Positions 2,954 to 11,980 of a stretch of DNA of 49,657 bases are shown here, one piece after another. A model generated the notes under the pieces. It was not told the DNA's origin. It did no database searches and was given only the letters and a program-made list of their open reading frames with translations. The stretch is taken from positions 1-49,657 of the forward strand of contig JADGEK010000030.1 of assembly GCA_016744395.1 (NCBI GenBank), in the 5' to 3' direction. Source of the DNA: Gammaproteobacteria bacterium. GTDB lineage: Bacteria > Pseudomonadota > Gammaproteobacteria > GRL18. Numbering within the stretch: the first letter of the stretch is position 1; every line of letters starts with the position of its first letter. Both the position numbers and the translations under genes were made by a program.

Positions 2954-4213
2954 ATGGCGATTCTTTCACTGGCTTGGAAGAGCTTAATCAATCGATATTT
3001 CACCGCCATGCTGACCGTGACTTCCATTGCACTGAGTGTGGCTCTGCTTGTGGGTGTCGAACGATTACGTATCGAAACCCGCGCAAGCTTTGCCAATACC
3101 CTGTCAGGAACGGATCTGATCGTAGGGGCACGTAGTGGACCAGTACAAATTTTGCTCTATTCTGTGTTTCGGATGGGAGATGCCACCAACAATATCTCCT
3201 GGAAAAGTTACCAGGATATTGCCACACATAAGAAGGTGGCCTGGACCGTGCCGATTTCGCTGGGTGATTCGCATCGAGGTTTCCGTGTTCTGGGAACAAC
3301 GACCGCCTATTTCCAATATTATCGCTATGCTCGTGATCGCCGACTAAAAATTGCCGAAGGACAACAGTTTGCCGATCTTTATGACGCCGTTCTCGGTTAC
3401 GAAGTAGCTGAAAAACTGGGCTACAAAATCGGTGATCCGATCATTATTGCCCATGGCGCAAGTGACGTGAGCTTTGCACGACACGATGATAAACCGTTTC
3501 GTGTGGCAGGCATACTGGCACGAACTGGTACTCCAGTCGATAGAACAGTGCACGTCAGCCTTGAAGCCATCGAGGCAATCCACATCGACTGGCAGAGCGG
3601 CGCGCCAATGCCCGGTTTGTCGATCTCGGCAGAGCAAGCTCGAAAGATGGACCTGACACCCAAGGTGATCACTGCAGCCCTGATCGGCTTGAAGTCGAAA
3701 ACCGCCACTTTCCATATGCAGCGTTTTATTAATGACTATCCCAAGGAGTCACTATCGGCTATTATTCCTGGTGTGGCACTCAGTCAGCTCTGGAATTTGA
3801 TTGGCATTGCCGAAAATGCGTTACTGATCGTTTCTGGATTTGTGGTCGTGATTGGGTTGTTTGGTATGTTGACAGCCTTATTGATAAGTCTCAATGAGCG
3901 ACGCCGAGAAATAGCCATTTTACGTTCAGTCGGTGCGCGTCCGGTTCATGTATTCACGTTAATTATGAGCGAGGCGGGTTTTCTTACCTTGCTCAGTGTG
4001 CTGTTAGGTCTGGTGTTTCTCCACCTTATACTACTCGCAGGTCAACCAATTATTGAGAATCAATTTGGAATCTTTATCGAAATTGGTGGCTTATCCCCTT
4101 ATGCCTGGAGCCTTCTTGGGGGTGTGACGTTGGCGGGTTTCCTAGTGGGTGTCATCCCCAGTTATCGAGCTTACCGATTGTCGCTTGTCGATGACTTGTC
4201 AGTGAGAGTATAG
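2954..4213 (+). CDS. ABC transporter permease, FtsX/MacB type, zinc system
   Basis: A 419-residue inner-membrane protein. One membrane helix lies near the N-terminus (about residues 15-37), then a large periplasmic domain, then three helices near residues 285-315, 335-360 and 380-405. The cytosolic loop NERRREIAILRSVGA is the typical FtsX/MacB/LolC coupling motif. Such proteins usually push substrates or conformational change across the envelope rather than import ions, so how this pair helps zinc uptake is open. It starts three bases after the ATPase stop and ends four bases before the lipoprotein gene, so the genes are co-transcribed. Confidence 0.85.
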   Translation: MAILSLAWKSLINRYFTAMLTVTSIALSVALLVGVERLRIETRASFANTLSGTDLIVGARSGPVQILLYSVFRMGDATNNISWKSYQDIATHKKVAWTVPISLGDSHRGFRVLGTTTAYFQYYRYARDRRLKIAEGQQFADLYDAVLGYEVAEKLGYKIGDPIIIAHGASDVSFARHDDKPFRVAGILARTGTPVDRTVHVSLEAIEAIHIDWQSGAPMPGLSISAEQARKMDLTPKVITAALIGLKSKTATFHMQRFINDYPKESLSAIIPGVALSQLWNLIGIAENALLIVSGFVVVIGLFGMLTALLISLNERRREIAILRSVGARPVHVFTLIMSEAGFLTLLSVLLGLVFLHLILLAGQPIIENQFGIFIEIGGLSPYAWSLLGGVTLAGFLVGVIPSYRAYRLSLVDDLSVRV

Positions 4214-4931: not shown

Positions 4932-5831
4932 ATGTTAATTAGCAATACACTACCTGATGTGACTTCTGATGTTACTGCAGAGAACCCCTTGCCTTTACAG
5001 TGGGTCGGCATGGAAGACATTTCAATCCCTATTTCAATGAGCCTACAGGATAGCCTGCAAGCGCTTGCTGCAAAAGCGGATGTATTTGTCAGTCTTGAAA
5101 GCTCAAAGGCAAAAGGCATTCACATGTCTCGCTTGTATACCATCATCAATCAATTAGTAGAGCATGAGTGTAACAAAGACACTATTGATCACTTGTTGGA
5201 CGAGATGATACGTTCACAGAATGGTATATGTGATAGTGCCAAAATAAAACTGGTCTTTGGTATACTGGTGAAAAAGATGGCACTGCTAAGTGATGAGTAC
5301 GGCTATCAATCCTATCCCCTGGCGATCAGTGCCCAGCGCAAAAATAAAAGTAGCAACTATGATTTTGATATCACCATCCCTTATTCAAGCACTTGCCCGT
5401 GTTCTGCATCACTTGCGCGGCAGTTGCATTTCAATGCGATTAATCAGCAATTTCCGGACTCAACAATTGACAAGAAAAAATTACTGGAATGGGGGCAATC
5501 AGAGGCTGGAACCATTGCTACCCCCCATAGTCAACGTTCTTATGCCTATCTCAAACTGCAATATAGTGATAATGAATGGCCGGACTTGATGGACTTAATA
5601 CATCAACTGGAAGAAATTATCGGTACACCGGTTCAGACTGCGGTGAAACGTAGCGATGAACAGGAGTTTGCCCGTCTTAATGCAGAGAATCTTATGTTTT
5701 GTGAAGATGCCGCAAGACGCATAAAAAACTGTTTAGAACAAATACCATTCGTAACTGATTATTGGTTTAAGGTAGAGCATCAGGAAAGCCTGCATGCCCA
5801 TAATGCCGTAGTGATTGATCAAAAATTTTAA
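4932..5831 (+). CDS. folE2: GTP cyclohydrolase IB (FolE2)
   Basis: A 299-residue enzyme that converts GTP to 7,8-dihydroneopterin triphosphate, the first step of folate synthesis. The active-site segment STCPCSASLARQ (Cys155, Cys157) and GIHMSR (His64) are characteristic of FolE2, not of the zinc-dependent FolE1. FolE2 accepts other metals, and it is an established Zur-repressed substitute for FolE1 in several bacteria. A TAGGAA ribosome site precedes the ATG. The gene lies 69 bp after the DUF3299 gene and 25 bp before thrS2, on the same strand, so it is probably in the Zur-controlled operon. Confidence 0.93.
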   Translation: MLISNTLPDVTSDVTAENPLPLQWVGMEDISIPISMSLQDSLQALAAKADVFVSLESSKAKGIHMSRLYTIINQLVEHECNKDTIDHLLDEMIRSQNGICDSAKIKLVFGILVKKMALLSDEYGYQSYPLAISAQRKNKSSNYDFDITIPYSSTCPCSASLARQLHFNAINQQFPDSTIDKKKLLEWGQSEAGTIATPHSQRSYAYLKLQYSDNEWPDLMDLIHQLEEIIGTPVQTAVKRSDEQEFARLNAENLMFCEDAARRIKNCLEQIPFVTDYWFKVEHQESLHAHNAVVIDQKF

Positions 5832-5856
5832 TTAAAAAGTATCCTGGTTATCTTGT

Positions 5857-7839
5857 ATGCATGACAATAAAAAACAAATAACGATAAGCTTAGCTGATGG
5901 CTCCCAGCGCCAATTCCATGCTGGTGTAACTATTATGGAAATTGCCGAAGCTATCGGTTCGGGATTAGCAAAAAAGACTATAGCCGCTGAAGTGAACGGG
6001 AATCTTGTTGATAGTTGTGATGCTATTTGTCACGATGCGACTATTAAAATAATTACACCACGTGATGCACAAGGTGTTGATATTATTCGCCACTCATGCG
6101 CCCATCTATTAGGTCATGCGGTAAAACAACTCTACCCAACAGCGCAAATGGTGATTGGTCCGGTTATTGAAAATGGTTTCTATTATGATATTGCCTATGA
6201 GCGGCCTTTTACACGAGAAGATCTTGCGTCGATTGAAGAGCGAATGCGAAAATTGATCGCCACACACTACAATGTGGTAAAACGCCTTGTACCCCGTAAC
6301 GAAGTTATAGAAATATTTCACAATCGCCAGGAAAGCTATAAATTACAGCTGATAGCTGACATGCCTGATACAGAAGAAATGGCCCTTTATTATCATCAGG
6401 AATATATTGATATGTGTCGTGATCCTCATGTGCATAATACCCGTTTTTTAAAACACATGAAGTTAACTAAAATTTCTGGTGCTTATTGGCGTGGTGATTC
6501 AAAAAATGAACAACTGCAAAGGATCTATGGCACCGCCTGGGCCAATAAGAAAGATTTACGCAGCTATTTGATTATGATGGAAGAAGCGGAAAAACGTGAC
6601 CACCGTCGCCTGGGTCGAGAACTGGATCTTTTTCATTTTCATGAAGAGGCACCAGGTGCAGTATTCTGGCATGCGAAAGGCTGGATTATTTTTCAACAGC
6701 TCATTGAGTATATGCGTCGTCGTCAACAGCAGACAGGCTATGTAGAAGTGAATACGCCGGATGTTATGGATAGAAGTTTATGGCAAACCTCTGGACATTG
6801 GCAGAATTACAATGAGCATATGTATACCACGGATACATCCGATGGGCGCCTGCTGGCACTTAAACCCATGAATTGTCCAGGTAGCGTACTTATGTTTAGC
6901 CATGGCTTAAAAAGCTACCGTGATTTACCCATCCGTATGGCGGAATTTGGCAAGGTCCATCGTTATGAACCTTCCGGTTCGCTACATGGTTTATTTCGAG
7001 TGCGTCATTTTACCCAAGATGATGCACATATCTACTGTACGCCGCAACAGATGCAACAGGAATGCACTCAATTAGTTTCACTGGTTCTCGACATTTATCG
7101 TCAATTTGGCTTTGACGATGTGGGTATTAAACTGTCTACTCGGCCTGATAGTCGTATGGGGGATAATGCGATGTGGGATGTTCTTGAATCAGCATTGCTG
7201 GAATCTCTGCAAAGCCTGACTTTAGATTACCAGTTAAATCCAGGAGAAGGCGCGTTTTATGGCCCTAAACTAGAGTTTGTTTTACGTGATGCCATTGGTC
7301 GTGACTGGCAGTGCGGCACTTTACAGGTAGATATGAATTTACCCGCCCGATTTTCCCTTGAATACATCGATGAGAAAAACCACCGGCAGCCACCTGTAAT
7401 GCTGCATCGTGCCTTATTTGGTTCACTTGAACGTTTTACCGGCATTCTTATCGAACATTATGCAGCTAAGCTGCCTGCCTGGCTAGCCCCCGTACAGGTA
7501 TCTATATTAACTATATCGCAGGCATTCAATGGATACGCATCAGGTTTACATAAAGTAATGGAGGCTGCTGGCTTACGAAGTGAATTGGATACTAGCAAGG
7601 AAAAAATCGGTTATAAAATTCGTCAACATAGCCTGCAGAAAGTCCCTTTTATGCTGATAATCGGTGCTAAAGAAGTTGCAACCAACCAGCTCAACCTACG
7701 CTTGCGCAGTGGTGAAAACCTGAGCTTTCCTAATATAAAAAGTGCTGTGGACTATCTCCTTCAGTCCTGTATAGCACCCGATATGACTGAGCAAACTGAT
7801 ATGCTTGAAACAGCGATACAGCTTTTGCATACGGCATAA
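5857..7839 (+). CDS. thrS2: Threonyl-tRNA synthetase, zinc-locus paralogue type
   Basis: A complete 660-residue ThrRS that charges tRNA-Thr in the cytosol. Domains in order are TGS (about 5-70), the editing domain with HSCAHLLGH (79-87) and DMCRDPH, the class II catalytic core with motif 2 (HRYEPSGSLHGLFRVR) and motif 3 (HRALFGSLERF), and an anticodon-binding domain from about 545. The catalytic zinc ligands are all kept: Cys340, His391 and His517 match E. coli Cys334, His385 and His511. The gene is not next to infC-rpmI-rplT as housekeeping thrS usually is. It follows folE2 by 25 bp in the Zur locus, like known zinc-starvation ThrRS paralogues. Whether a second copy exists elsewhere cannot be seen here. 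Confidence 0.92.
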   Translation: MHDNKKQITISLADGSQRQFHAGVTIMEIAEAIGSGLAKKTIAAEVNGNLVDSCDAICHDATIKIITPRDAQGVDIIRHSCAHLLGHAVKQLYPTAQMVIGPVIENGFYYDIAYERPFTREDLASIEERMRKLIATHYNVVKRLVPRNEVIEIFHNRQESYKLQLIADMPDTEEMALYYHQEYIDMCRDPHVHNTRFLKHMKLTKISGAYWRGDSKNEQLQRIYGTAWANKKDLRSYLIMMEEAEKRDHRRLGRELDLFHFHEEAPGAVFWHAKGWIIFQQLIEYMRRRQQQTGYVEVNTPDVMDRSLWQTSGHWQNYNEHMYTTDTSDGRLLALKPMNCPGSVLMFSHGLKSYRDLPIRMAEFGKVHRYEPSGSLHGLFRVRHFTQDDAHIYCTPQQMQQECTQLVSLVLDIYRQFGFDDVGIKLSTRPDSRMGDNAMWDVLESALLESLQSLTLDYQLNPGEGAFYGPKLEFVLRDAIGRDWQCGTLQVDMNLPARFSLEYIDEKNHRQPPVMLHRALFGSLERFTGILIEHYAAKLPAWLAPVQVSILTISQAFNGYASGLHKVMEAAGLRSELDTSKEKIGYKIRQHSLQKVPFMLIIGAKEVATNQLNLRLRSGENLSFPNIKSAVDYLLQSCIAPDMTEQTDMLETAIQLLHTA

Positions 7840-7927
7840 GGCTGTGTGCCTGGAATTTAATCATAAGAACTGCAAGTCTGACTGACAGCAGTGTGACAGT
7901 AATCAAATCACTTTTTTAGGTATTACC

Positions 7928-8509
7928 TTGAGCTATCCCATAATACTCGCATCAAGCTCACGCTTTAGAAAAAAAATACTGACAAAGCTTGCATTGCCAT
8001 TTGTTGCATTTTCGCCTGATATAGATGAACAGAGGATGACGGGAGAATCACCTGAGCAGCTGGTGACACGGCTTTCCAGCTTAAAAGCGCAGGTTATCAA
8101 AGCAGATTATTCAGAGCATCTCATTATTGGTTCCGATCAGGTCGCTTGTATTGAAGGTGAAATACTGGGCAAACCCGGTAATTATGATAAAGCACGGGCA
8201 CAGCTGCAATTCGCATCCGGTAAAGTAATCACTTTTTATACTGGCTTAACACTACTCAATAGTAAAACAGGGCATGAGCAAACAAGCTGTGAAACATTTA
8301 AGGCTCACTTTAGGAATTTAAAGGATGAGCAAATCACCCGTTACCTTAAAAAGGATAAACCTTATGATTGTGCAGGCAGCTTTAAATCAGAAGGATTGGG
8401 TATTGCTTTATGTAAAAAACTTGAAGGTGATGACCCGAATACTCTGATTGGATTACCTTTGATAAAACTCATTCATATGTTGGAAAAAGAGGGTATTCCT
8501 GTACCCTAA
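7928..8509 (+). CDS. yceF: Maf-family nucleotide pyrophosphatase, YceF type
   Basis: A 193-residue Maf protein, starting at TTG and closely resembling E. coli YceF. Motifs are LASSSRFRKK (residues 7-16), the catalytic GSDQV and the C-terminal CAGSFKSEGLGIAL with DPNTLIGLPL. YceF-type enzymes hydrolyse 7-methyl-GTP and related modified nucleotides to the monophosphate in a metal-dependent way. It normally sits near rluC or rpmF-plsX, but here it is 88 bp after thrS2 and just before the znu promoter, on the same strand. It may be co-transcribed with the zinc operon; its link to zinc is not established. Confidence 0.88.
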   Translation: MSYPIILASSSRFRKKILTKLALPFVAFSPDIDEQRMTGESPEQLVTRLSSLKAQVIKADYSEHLIIGSDQVACIEGEILGKPGNYDKARAQLQFASGKVITFYTGLTLLNSKTGHEQTSCETFKAHFRNLKDEQITRYLKKDKPYDCAGSFKSEGLGIALCKKLEGDDPNTLIGLPLIKLIHMLEKEGIPVP

Positions 8510-8550
8510 CTATCGTACTGCAAAAATTAAGACTGGATTCTCAAATAAAT

Positions 8551-8574
8551 CATGATATGATACATCATATCATG
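8551..8574. promoter_or_regulatory. Zur box 3, upstream of the znu operon
   Basis: The best palindrome of the set: 24 bp with arms CATGATATGAT and ATCATATCATG, and only the two central bases unpaired. TATGAT at 8556-8561 inside it could serve as the -10 element. It lies 38 bp before the likely GTG start of the small membrane protein that begins the znu operon. Confidence 0.85.
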
Positions 8575-8611
8575 ATTGTATGGTGTTTTTATTGAGGGGA
8601 GTGTTGTCGTT

Positions 8612-8779
8612 GTGAAAGCTGTTAGTTCCGCTGGTGCCAGGGAAGTGCCTAAAGATAAAACGGAGATGACAAAGAGCCAACGCCATTCTTTGCTCCAACT
8701 TGGTGTTGGCTTACGTTTGGTTCTGGCAGGCCTGGGCTCGGCGGTCATCTGGGGAGCTATTGCATGGGCGCTGATATGA
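8612..8779 (+). CDS. Small single-span membrane protein coupled to znuC
   Basis: A 55-residue protein from GTG at 8612, ten bases after the ribosome site GAGGGGAG; a TTG at 8576 without a ribosome site would add 12 residues. The first half is polar and basic (REVPKDKTEMTKSQRH). The second half is one hydrophobic helix rich in Leu, Gly and Ala (residues about 29-55). Its stop TGA overlaps the ATG of znuC (ATGA at 8776-8779), the mark of translational coupling. It is the first gene after the Zur box. I do not recognise a family. A helper subunit or regulator of the importer is possible but not shown. Confidence 0.65.
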   Translation: MKAVSSAGAREVPKDKTEMTKSQRHSLLQLGVGLRLVLAGLGSAVIWGAIAWALI

Positions 8780-9516
8780 AAAAGGAAATACTCCGATTTG
8801 AAAATCTGACATTGGGATATGAGCGTCATCCAGCAGTGCATCATCTGGATTTCAGTGTTCGACGCAATGCTATGGTGGCGGTGGCGGGTCCCAATGGCGC
8901 TGGCAAATCCACCCTGCTCAAAGGAATTATCAGAACCATCAAACCCATGGGCGGTTCGATTCGACTCTGTGGGATCAAGCAGCGGGAAATTGCCTATTTA
9001 CCACAGAGGACATCACTGGATACAACCTTCCCCATCACCGTTTTTGACATGGTTGCTATGGGTATGTGGCAAGCAGCGGGTGCCTTTGGATGCTTTGATA
9101 GACAAAGAAATGCCCGTGTTATGCAAGCATTGCAGCGTGTGGGTTTGGCTGGTATGGAACACCGTCCTATTGGTTCCTTATCTGGAGGACAGGCGCAGCG
9201 TGCGCTGTTTGCCCGCCTGCTATTGCAAGATGCCTCTTTAATTCTTCTTGATGAACCCTTCAATGCCATTGACTCAGCCAGTGTGCGGGATCTTTTGGGG
9301 CTGATCCATACCTGGCGCGAGGAGGACAAAACCATACTGGTGGTGCTTCATGATCTGGATCTGATCCGGTCTGCCTTTTCGGAAACGATACTGCTTGCCC
9401 GGGAGTTGGTCGCAGGCGGAGCGACCGACAAGGTACTCTCAGCATACAATTTAAGTCAGGCGCAACACCTTTGCGAGAGATTTGAAAGCCAATCTCTTCT
9501 GTGTGAAAGAGGATAA
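8776..9516 (+). CDS. znuC: Zinc ABC transporter ATPase (ZnuC/AztA type)
   Basis: A 246-residue ATPase from the ATG at 8776, chosen because it overlaps the stop of the upstream small gene; an ATG at 8764 would add four residues. Motifs are Walker A GPNGAGKST (residues 38-46), Q-loop LPQRTS, signature LSGGQAQR, Walker B LILLDEP and the switch His in VLHDLD. It belongs to the zinc/manganese importer branch and energises the ZnuB permease next to it. The order ATPase-permease-binding protein matches aztABC of Paracoccus as well as znu operons. The local base composition looks richer in G and C than the housekeeping genes further right. Confidence 0.92.
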   Translation: MKKEILRFENLTLGYERHPAVHHLDFSVRRNAMVAVAGPNGAGKSTLLKGIIRTIKPMGGSIRLCGIKQREIAYLPQRTSLDTTFPITVFDMVAMGMWQAAGAFGCFDRQRNARVMQALQRVGLAGMEHRPIGSLSGGQAQRALFARLLLQDASLILLDEPFNAIDSASVRDLLGLIHTWREEDKTILVVLHDLDLIRSAFSETILLARELVAGGATDKVLSAYNLSQAQHLCERFESQSLLCERG

Positions 9517-9523
9517 CAGTGTT

Positions 9524-10390
9524 ATGTATGATTTTTTTATCGGACCATTTGAGGAGTTCGCCTTTATGCGTCGTGCCATGGCTGGTTGCCTGGCACTTGC
9601 TTTGGGGGCAACTCCAGTAGGGGTCTTCCTGACACTGCGTCGAATGAGCTTGACCGGTGATGCCATGTCCCATGCCATTCTGCCTGGAGCGGCAGTGGGG
9701 TATCTACTGGCTGGTCTCTCCCTTGGAGCCATGACGATTGGTGGAGCAATTGCTGGATTCACCGTCGCCATGTTATCGGGTTGGGTGGCACGTGTCACTG
9801 CTGCCAGGGAAGACTCGAGTTTGGCTGCCTTCTATCTGATCTCCCTTGCGACTGGTGTTTTAATCGTCTCCATGCGAGGTAGCAATGTTGATCTGCTGCA
9901 TATCCTGTTCGGTAGCGCCTTGGCATTAAACAATGCGGCGCTGTTTCTGATTGCTGGTATCAGTACCACCACCCTAGTGGCTCTGGCTATTTTGTACCGC
10001 CCTTTGGTTATGGAGTGCCTGGATCCTGAATTTCTTCGCTCAGTGAGCCGCCTGAGTCCTGTGGCACACTACGGTTTTCTTTTTCTGGTTGTGCTCAATC
10101 TTGTGGGAGGCTTTCATGCACTTGGCACCCTTATGGCTGTTGGTATCATGATCCTACCAGCAGCAGCGGCACGATTCTGGTCCCGAGATATTAGCAGATT
10201 GCTGGCGGTTGCGGTAACGGGAGCTGTGGTGAGTGGTTACGTGGGTTTGCTGCTTTCTTACCATGTCGGACTGCCTACTGGGCCAGCAATCATCCTCACT
10301 GCGGGTTCATTCTACATTCTATCATTAACATTTGGTGTCGATGGCGTAATTCGCTCACACATCCACCCTAAACGCCATTTTCAAAAATGA
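9524..10390 (+). CDS. znuB: Zinc ABC transporter permease (ZnuB/AztB type)
   Basis: A 288-residue ABC-3 family permease with about eight hydrophobic segments, which forms the inner-membrane channel for zinc. The ATG at 9524 is preferred because AAGAGGATAA precedes it; a frame open from 9482 would overlap znuC. The conserved segment LTGDAMSHAILPGAAVGY near residues 40-57 and the later SVSRLSPVAHYGFLF region are typical. It starts seven bases after the znuC stop and ends 33 bp before the binding-protein gene, so the operon is tight. Confidence 0.92.
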   Translation: MYDFFIGPFEEFAFMRRAMAGCLALALGATPVGVFLTLRRMSLTGDAMSHAILPGAAVGYLLAGLSLGAMTIGGAIAGFTVAMLSGWVARVTAAREDSSLAAFYLISLATGVLIVSMRGSNVDLLHILFGSALALNNAALFLIAGISTTTLVALAILYRPLVMECLDPEFLRSVSRLSPVAHYGFLFLVVLNLVGGFHALGTLMAVGIMILPAAAARFWSRDISRLLAVAVTGAVVSGYVGLLLSYHVGLPTGPAIILTAGSFYILSLTFGVDGVIRSHIHPKRHFQK

Positions 10391-10423
10391 CACTTTTCCC
10401 ATTAACCTTAAGGAGAACTTTCT

Positions 10424-11308
10424 ATGATCTTCAGATGTTGGCTTCACACTATCGCCATGTACTTAATAGCACTGGCCATCTCAACCCCTCTATGGGCGGA
10501 ACAGCCGTTAAAGGTCGTTGCCTCGTTCAGTATTCTTGGCGATATGATTCAGCAGGTAGGCGGGAATCGAATCGAGGTCACCACCCTCGTTGGAGCGGAT
10601 GCCGATGGACATGTTTATCAACCCACGCCTGCTGATGCTCGTAGCGTGGCACGTGCGGAACTTCTGGTGGTCAATGGATTGGGATTCGAAGGCTGGATTG
10701 AGCGTCTCATCCAGGCTTCTGGCTACAATGGTACGGTCATTACGGCGACAGATGGCATCAAGCTGCGAAAGATGCAAGAGGCTGACACTGATCCCCACGC
10801 ATGGCAGAGCCTGGCTAACGCCAGAATCTATATCCGCAATATTGTTCATGGACTTTCCCTGGCTGATCAGGCAGGTGCATCAGTCTATAAGGCCAATGCA
10901 GCACGTTATCTGGATAGGCTGGACGCTGTTGAGGCTGAAGTGATCAGCACCATTGCTTCCATCCCGGCGCATCGCCGTAAGGTCGTGACCATGCACGATG
11001 CTTTTGGCTATTTTGAGACGGCTTATGGTCTTGTATTCCTGGCACCAGTTGGGCTCAGCACGGAGTCTGAAGCATCGGCAGCGGATGTGGCCAGCTTGAT
11101 CCGTCAAATCCACAAGGAGCAGATACCAGCTGTGTTTATAGAAAATATATCCGATCCCCGGCTGTTGCAACAAATCAATCGCGAAACGGGTGCACGGATC
11201 GGTGGTGTGCTTTATTCGGATGCCCTCTCATCCAGGGATGGACCTGCGTCAACCTACCTGGATATGTTTCTTTACAACACTCATACCCTTACAAAGGCGC
11301 TCAAGTAA
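10424..11308 (+). CDS. znuA: Zinc ABC transporter periplasmic binding protein (AztC/ZnuA type)
   Basis: A 294-residue cluster A-I solute-binding protein with a signal peptide ending near LWA-EQPL and a good AAGGAGAA ribosome site. The likely zinc ligands are His63 (ADGHVYQP), His125 (DPHAW), His191 (MHDAF) and Asp266 (YSDAL). The His-His-His-Asp set and the absence of a long His-rich loop resemble AztC more than E. coli ZnuA, whose fourth ligand lies in its loop. No aztD chaperone gene follows; the next gene is zur. It hands zinc to the ZnuB/ZnuC pair encoded upstream. Confidence 0.9.
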   Translation: MIFRCWLHTIAMYLIALAISTPLWAEQPLKVVASFSILGDMIQQVGGNRIEVTTLVGADADGHVYQPTPADARSVARAELLVVNGLGFEGWIERLIQASGYNGTVITATDGIKLRKMQEADTDPHAWQSLANARIYIRNIVHGLSLADQAGASVYKANAARYLDRLDAVEAEVISTIASIPAHRRKVVTMHDAFGYFETAYGLVFLAPVGLSTESEASAADVASLIRQIHKEQIPAVFIENISDPRLLQQINRETGARIGGVLYSDALSSRDGPASTYLDMFLYNTHTLTKALK

Positions 11309-11383: not shown

Positions 11384-11518
11384 AGAGGTGATGATATGTT
11401 GGCTAAGTGACTGTTTTCTTAATAAAGAGGTTTAAGTCAAAGGTAAAGCATTTAGCAGACAAAGCAGGGGGTTATGACCCATGATATAATTAAAGAACAA
11501 TCATTAGAGGTGGATTTC

Positions 11519-11980
11519 ATGAACAAGATACAGGCAATCATTGAACACGCAGAGCGACATTGCAATGAACATGGCGCACGATTAACCAATAAGCGAAAAC
11601 AAGTGCTTTCTGGATTGTTGCAGTCTGAAAAAGCCTTGTCAGCCTACGAACTGGTGGAATATTGTAAAAGTGAATTTGGTGAAAGCCTTCCGGCAATGTC
11701 TGTTTATCGTATTCTGGACTTTCTTGAAGATGAGCAGCTGGTACACAAACTTAACCTGGCTAATAAATATGTTGCTTGTGCCCATATTACCTGTAAACAT
11801 GACCATGAGGTACCGCAATTTTTAATTTGTTCAAAGTGTCAAAGGGTTAATGAAATCAGCATCAATAAGTCAACGATTGATGCGTTAAAGCGCAATGTAG
11901 AAAAAGCAGGGTTCCATTTGGTCAGCCCTCAGTTGGAAATGAATTGTATTTGCGAACAATGCATAAATAAAGCAGCTTAG
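11519..11980 (+). CDS. zur: Zinc uptake regulator Zur (Fur family)
   Basis: A 153-residue Fur-family repressor. The N-terminal winged helix contains RLTNKRKQVL and PAMSVYRILDFL. The C-terminal half has CAHITCKHDHEVPQFLIC, typical of Zur rather than Fur, and structural zinc cysteines Cys104/Cys107 with Cys143/145/148. The ATG at 11519 follows AGAGGTGG and matches the length of E. coli Zur before LTxxR; an ATG at 11474 would add 15 residues. With zinc bound it should repress genes bearing the palindromes in this island. It lies just after znuA on the same strand but with its own box-bearing leader. Confidence 0.92.
   Translation: MNKIQAIIEHAERHCNEHGARLTNKRKQVLSGLLQSEKALSAYELVEYCKSEFGESLPAMSVYRILDFLEDEQLVHKLNLANKYVACAHITCKHDHEVPQFLICSKCQRVNEISINKSTIDALKRNVEKAGFHLVSPQLEMNCICEQCINKAA

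Follow-up and report, generated by a model that had tools for sequence, protein, structure and literature searches.

A small single-helix membrane protein encoded with Azt-type zinc importers, a candidate fourth transporter subunit

The zinc importers of cluster A-I of the ATP-binding cassette (ABC) transporters are textbook three-protein systems. AztABCD was described from Paracoccus together with the AztD chaperone (PMC7463823, PMC5387054). In other membrane complexes, CydX, KdpF and AcrZ are one-helix proteins of about 30–50 amino acids that act as partners of cytochrome bd, the Kdp ATPase and AcrB, respectively, and annotation easily misses them (PMC4325964, PMC7267776, PMC10903887). Here, we analysed a stretch of 49,657 nt from a gammaproteobacterium (GenBank assembly GCA_016744395.1, contig JADGEK010000030.1), referred to as the window, in which a gene for a 55-residue membrane protein directly precedes the genes of a zinc importer. 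As in AztABCD of Paracoccus denitrificans, homologous genes for the ATPase, permease and binding protein are present in a Zur-controlled operon. Our analysis, which sampled the Pseudomonadota, leaves hardly any doubt that the small protein is a real and conserved component of Azt-type operons. On sequence evidence, we consider it probable that this single-pass, N-in protein of the inner membrane is a constitutive fourth subunit, or accessory helix, of the membrane complex of AztABC-type zinc importers.

A protein family upstream of aztA

The open reading frame (ORF) at 8612–8779 on the forward strand contains 55 codons, with a GTG start at 8612 and a TGA stop ending at 8779, and encodes VKAVSSAGAREVPKDKTEMTKSQRHSLLQLGVGLRLVLAGLGSAVIWGAIAWALI. 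A preliminary description had reported this ORF with a good ribosome site and one membrane helix, and both features were recovered. The sequence GAGGGGAG (8594–8601, forward strand) contains GGAG, which is Shine-Dalgarno (SD)-like and lies 10 nt away from the start codon. Initiation at an in-frame ATG at 8666 instead would give a protein of 37 aa, but this ATG has no usable SD, and the nearest homologue (locus L136, 48 aa) has a similar tail. GTG 8612 is favoured as the start on these two grounds, short of proof. A single hydrophobic helix was found at residues 37–55 (Kyte-Doolittle mean 2.03), and the single-sequence AlphaFold model placed a helix at residues 21–53 with a mean predicted local distance difference test (pLDDT) score of 74.

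The protein had been called unrecognised, and as a single query it indeed gave zero matches in Pfam, NCBIfam and plasmids (tblastn). One extra genome match (L002) was rejected because it is ATP synthase subunit c, whose helix matched by chance, and a search of genome contigs for related loci returned distant ATPases alone, which were of no use for building a family. The absence of convincing relatives in simple searches speaks for a chance ORF spanning the spacer between the operator and the aztA start. The homologue search that the preliminary description had proposed, upstream of related ATPase genes, did find relatives. In other genomes and plasmids, a dissimilar-looking short ORF occupied the same position and shared a pattern of Arg, eleven residues, Trp, four residues and Trp-Ala, and in a 24-sequence alignment Arg and Trp were invariant. 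The profile of these 24 relatives was searched against six-frame translations of 398 Pseudomonadota genomes, ignoring transporter position. It gave 53 matches, every one located immediately before an AztA-like ATPase gene and on its strand; some of the seed sequences came from two of the genomes searched (G000 and G293).

Among 53 representative sequences, Arg35 was present in all 53 (codon at 8714–8716 in the window), Trp47 in 50, Trp52 in 45 and Ala53 in 44. The latter three lie in a conserved transmembrane helix of residues 36–55 (8717–8776), which is helical in the AlphaFold model. The window protein carries R35, W47 and W52-A53, and its gene has the position typical of the family, its stop overlapping the start of an Azt-type ATPase gene as ATGA at 8776–8779. 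The family profile had no significant match in PDB. Relatives were not found in Pfam, NCBIfam or PDB, where single members among the 24 gave isolated weak matches (YshB 0.0041, Pkr1 0.041). The small proteins are a widespread family of one-helix membrane proteins that is missing from the protein-family libraries searched.

Selection on the protein was examined in fourteen close pairs of small genes, in which the differences at codon positions 1, 2 and 3 numbered 115, 95 and 300, respectively. The ratio dN/dS of nonsynonymous to synonymous rates was about 0.06–0.38 in pairs with both rates computable. A smaller set of pairs gave a less clear picture. Different loci have the small gene in different frames relative to aztA, and conservation of the aztA start at the DNA level therefore cannot be why the small gene is conserved. 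These patterns indicate a protein-coding gene under purifying selection. The preliminary description had staked its claim on conservation of the frame or codon pattern in related operons, and both protein-level selection and the presence of the gene in 76 of 88 Azt-type loci bear it out. The chance ORF is refuted by the 53 blind matches, the 76 loci, the permease tree described below and the codon-position bias, and its probability is negligible.

Linkage to the transporter and probable translational coupling

The 398 genomes were also searched with the ATPase, and 100 of the best places were retrieved with their flanks. The small gene was found at those 76 loci with an Azt-type permease and at 0 of 12 ZnuB/Mn-type loci of cluster A-I, while shuffled upstream DNA reached the small-gene score in 19 of 1760 trials. 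In a midpoint-rooted maximum-likelihood tree of 93 permeases, the absences formed one clade of 12 rows (support 100/100) and two singletons, and the 79 other rows keep the gene. The clade comprises the Paracoccus and Klebsiella AztABCD together with Rhizobiaceae-like genomes (f219). The singletons are L222 (G699, a 1-Mb genome) and L232 (G848), the latter on a very long branch. Since the absences are limited to one clade and two singletons, the small gene has been inherited together with the permease across the rest of the tree. The window AztB falls outside the clade holding the Paracoccus and Klebsiella AztB (100/100; midpoint-rooted). The DNA before the L232 ATPase gene ends a folE2-like reading frame.

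The preliminary description had suggested a regulator or subunit of a transporter, and this genetic evidence supports such a role as the best reading. For the subunit, the mechanism we propose is that the helix would pack against the AztB permease through its conserved Arg/Trp face and may contribute to the assembly or stability of the AztA2B2 complex or set how active it is. CcmD has such a role in CcmABC, CydX in cytochrome bd and AcrZ with AcrB. Several observations weigh against a subunit. The canonical AztABCD and Rhizobiaceae-like transporters persist without the small protein, so the chemistry does not require it. AztB is on average equally long where the small protein is present and where it is absent (289 and 291 aa, respectively), so no missing helix is replaced, and the helix is loosely conserved apart from Arg, Trp and Ala. 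Furthermore, the physical association with the transporter is one that we infer from genetics. An assembly factor that aids the membrane insertion or quality control of AztB and then leaves the complex would also be a single helix encoded first and probably co-translated, with the same genetic linkage as a subunit. Sequence cannot separate the two, but co-inheritance throughout the clade fits a stoichiometric partner no less well, and we regard a transient factor as quite unlikely.

Three further ideas were tried and rejected. In the first, the small protein supplies a helix that AztB has lost, but AztB can be aligned from end to end in both groups and is equally long in them. In the second, it replaces AztD. 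The small gene is indeed missing from the AztABCD operons, and the AztD profile was found at 2 of the 100 loci, neither of which has the small gene; however, most loci without the small gene also lack aztD, so there is no simple swap. The third concerns the motif FM[R/Q]RAL at the N-terminus of AztB (window 9524 onwards), which has Arg in almost every permease encoded next to the small gene and Gln in most members of the clade that lacks it. The motif is a candidate contact site for the small protein; it was rejected as independent evidence of contact because most absences belong to one clade and are confounded by shared descent.

The stop of the small gene overlaps the start of aztA at 76 of 90 loci, as ATGA or GTGA at 70 and as TGATG or TAATG at 6. 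The preliminary description was correct in reporting the ATGA overlap in the window, where the downstream start has no SD, although it named the downstream gene znuC and the gene is aztA. Among the 70 ATGA/GTGA loci, an SD of at least four bases was found for aztA at 3 and for the small gene at 24, the start codons of family members being rule-based predictions. Given the overlap and the rarity of an SD before aztA, translation of this gene probably depends on reinitiation by ribosomes that have finished the small gene, and such coupling would fix both stoichiometry and gene order. The same overlaps, with no SD for aztA at 67 of the 70 loci, favour a translational leader, in which translation opens the aztA start by termination and reinitiation and the peptide itself is functionless. 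However, an invariant Arg, a near-invariant Trp and a third-position bias need protein-level selection over such distances, and His-rich tails are also under purifying selection (L137–L149). A functionless leader is very unlikely.

Predicted topology and histidine-rich tails

By the positive-inside rule, the basic flank of a membrane helix is expected to be cytoplasmic. The net charge was +1.7 in the N-terminal flank of the helix and +0.07 in its C-terminal flank, and because the N side is basic and the C side neutral, the protein is expected to be single-pass, N-in and C-out. The N-terminal tail is variable. At least 3 His were present in 28 of 75 tree rows, with up to 18 His in one member, and the His-rich state changed 9 times on the permease tree. 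Examples are MVPAASHAHHHDHAHGHSHDHGHSHGHAHAHVHDAASPHPAQ in L143 and MSEHTHRHNKEGPCHFS in L220. His-rich tails were observed in L137, L139–L149 (f216, Bradyrhizobium-like), L168, L172, L189, L191 and L220–L229 and originated several times, and the tails of the L220 type have a common HRH-x(1-2)-EGPCHFSLMSL segment.

These tails are likely to be metal binders on the cytoplasmic side, and the tail is most likely a clade-specific metal-binding add-on. Since the window protein has one His only, metal binding is not the core function of the small protein. In the several lineages concerned, a His-rich cytoplasmic tail probably binds imported zinc and could serve as acceptor or feedback sensor, an elaboration that the window copy lacks. 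The number of His residues, their repeated gain or loss on the tree and the predicted cytoplasmic location of the tail also agree with a regulator that is not a structural subunit, namely a cytoplasmic-tail zinc sensor inhibiting AztABC at high cytoplasmic zinc (trans-inhibition). However, most members, including that of the window, have no metal-binding tail, the helix is the conserved part and tail length hangs on the predicted start codons, so that a pure regulator seems unlikely. We offer more tentatively, as a doubtful extension of the fourth-subunit reading, that the branch as a whole has a four-component importer in which a repeatedly evolved zinc tail takes zinc at the permease exit or shuts the transporter once the cytoplasm is replete with zinc.

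If the small protein is a subunit, reconstitutions, structures and gene deletions of this branch made without it are incomplete. In that case, the recurrent His tails are also a place to ask how zinc exits the permease or how its import is stopped.

The window operon and its comparison with known systems

Three transporter genes follow on the forward strand. The aztA-like ATPase gene (8776–9516) scored 216.8 bits with NF040873 (cut-off 220), the aztB-like ABC-3 permease gene (9524–10390) 257.8 bits with NF040871 (cut-off 280) and the aztC-like zinc-binding protein gene (10424–11308) 305.7 bits with NF040870 (cut-off 350). The Azt models were the best matches for all three, each narrowly below its curated cut-off; because these are near misses, we call the operon Azt-type and not AztABCD. 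The ATPase reached 106.5 bits with the ZnuC model NF007090 (cut-off 306). As the AztA model is the best match and the ZnuC score is far under its cut-off, the name znuC is wrong for this gene, which on these scores encodes an AztA-like protein. An aztD metallochaperone gene is absent from the window operon, in which aztC is followed by a zur-like gene of the Fur family (11474–11980, forward strand; PF01475 above cut-off; best NCBIfam match Zur with 80.5 bits, below the cut-off of 167).

A Zur-type operator at 8548–8577 consists of a perfect 14+14 bp inverted repeat with a 2-nt spacer; this pattern occurred once in the window and in none of 100 shuffles. It had been described as the strongest Zur box, which holds for the length of the palindrome. 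By score against a generic consensus, it is equalled by sites near 329–350 and 1388–1404. These two Zur-like palindromes, around ATGATATGATATATTATATCAT and ATGATATGATACAACATATC, matched 13–14 of 17 positions of the generic box. Of 89 homologous loci, 53 have a 17-bp Zur-like box (at least 12 of 17) in the 200 nt before the small gene, where shuffling gave an expectation of about 1.4, and the small gene is often the first gene in operons after a Zur-type box. Before the operator, the window contains folE2, a full-length threonyl-tRNA synthetase gene and maf (4932–8509); folE2 and a second thrS would fit the zinc-sparing genes of a Zur regulon.

The G+C content was about 49–54% from the small gene through aztABC (window 8501–11308), compared with mostly 33–46% nearby. 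The nearest permease to the window AztB, that of L136, belongs to another class (80% identity), and the small gene was absent from all 23 genomes sampled from the same genus or family. On these three grounds, the window operon was probably acquired horizontally.

In plasmid records, the small gene is labelled 'hypothetical protein' or is unannotated, as far as the incomplete PLSDB gene table extends. In E. coli KC-Dl-1 (NZ_CP063046.1), the gene at L236:3905–4021 (MGDTVVSLYAFSAIARLGIVGVLLVLLWTLISWAVVLT) is unannotated, and the annotated coding sequence of the ATPase (L236:3883–4719) begins at 3883 and runs across it in another frame. Translation of the ATPase probably begins instead at the ATG within the ATGA overlap. 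Related ABC DNA was present in 11 of 5426 complete E. coli genomes. Annotation should be corrected accordingly, as the small gene is missed or 'hypothetical' and the E. coli ATPase appears to be annotated from a start that lies too far upstream.

We found no paper describing a small membrane protein at this position, subscription papers lying outside the search. ZnuABC of the E. coli type is, like the window system, a Zur-regulated zinc importer of cluster A-I, but the window ATPase matches ZnuC poorly and the ZnuB/Mn-type loci lack the small gene. The AztABCD operons of Paracoccus versutus (L032) and a Klebsiella plasmid (L033) are closer, yet they have no small gene and form a separate clade outside which the window lies; for P. 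versutus, the absence fits its position in the tree, away from the part that has the small gene. CydX, KdpF and AcrZ belong to complexes other than metal ABC importers and have no detectable sequence relation to the small protein. A passage of PMC10903887, citing Richard-Fogal 2008, gives CcmD as N-out/C-in, whereas the small protein is predicted to be N-in, and a sequence relation between the two was not found. As a tiny one-helix ABC subunit encoded with its complex, CcmD of the haem-handling complex CcmABC is nevertheless the nearest ABC parallel to the small protein.
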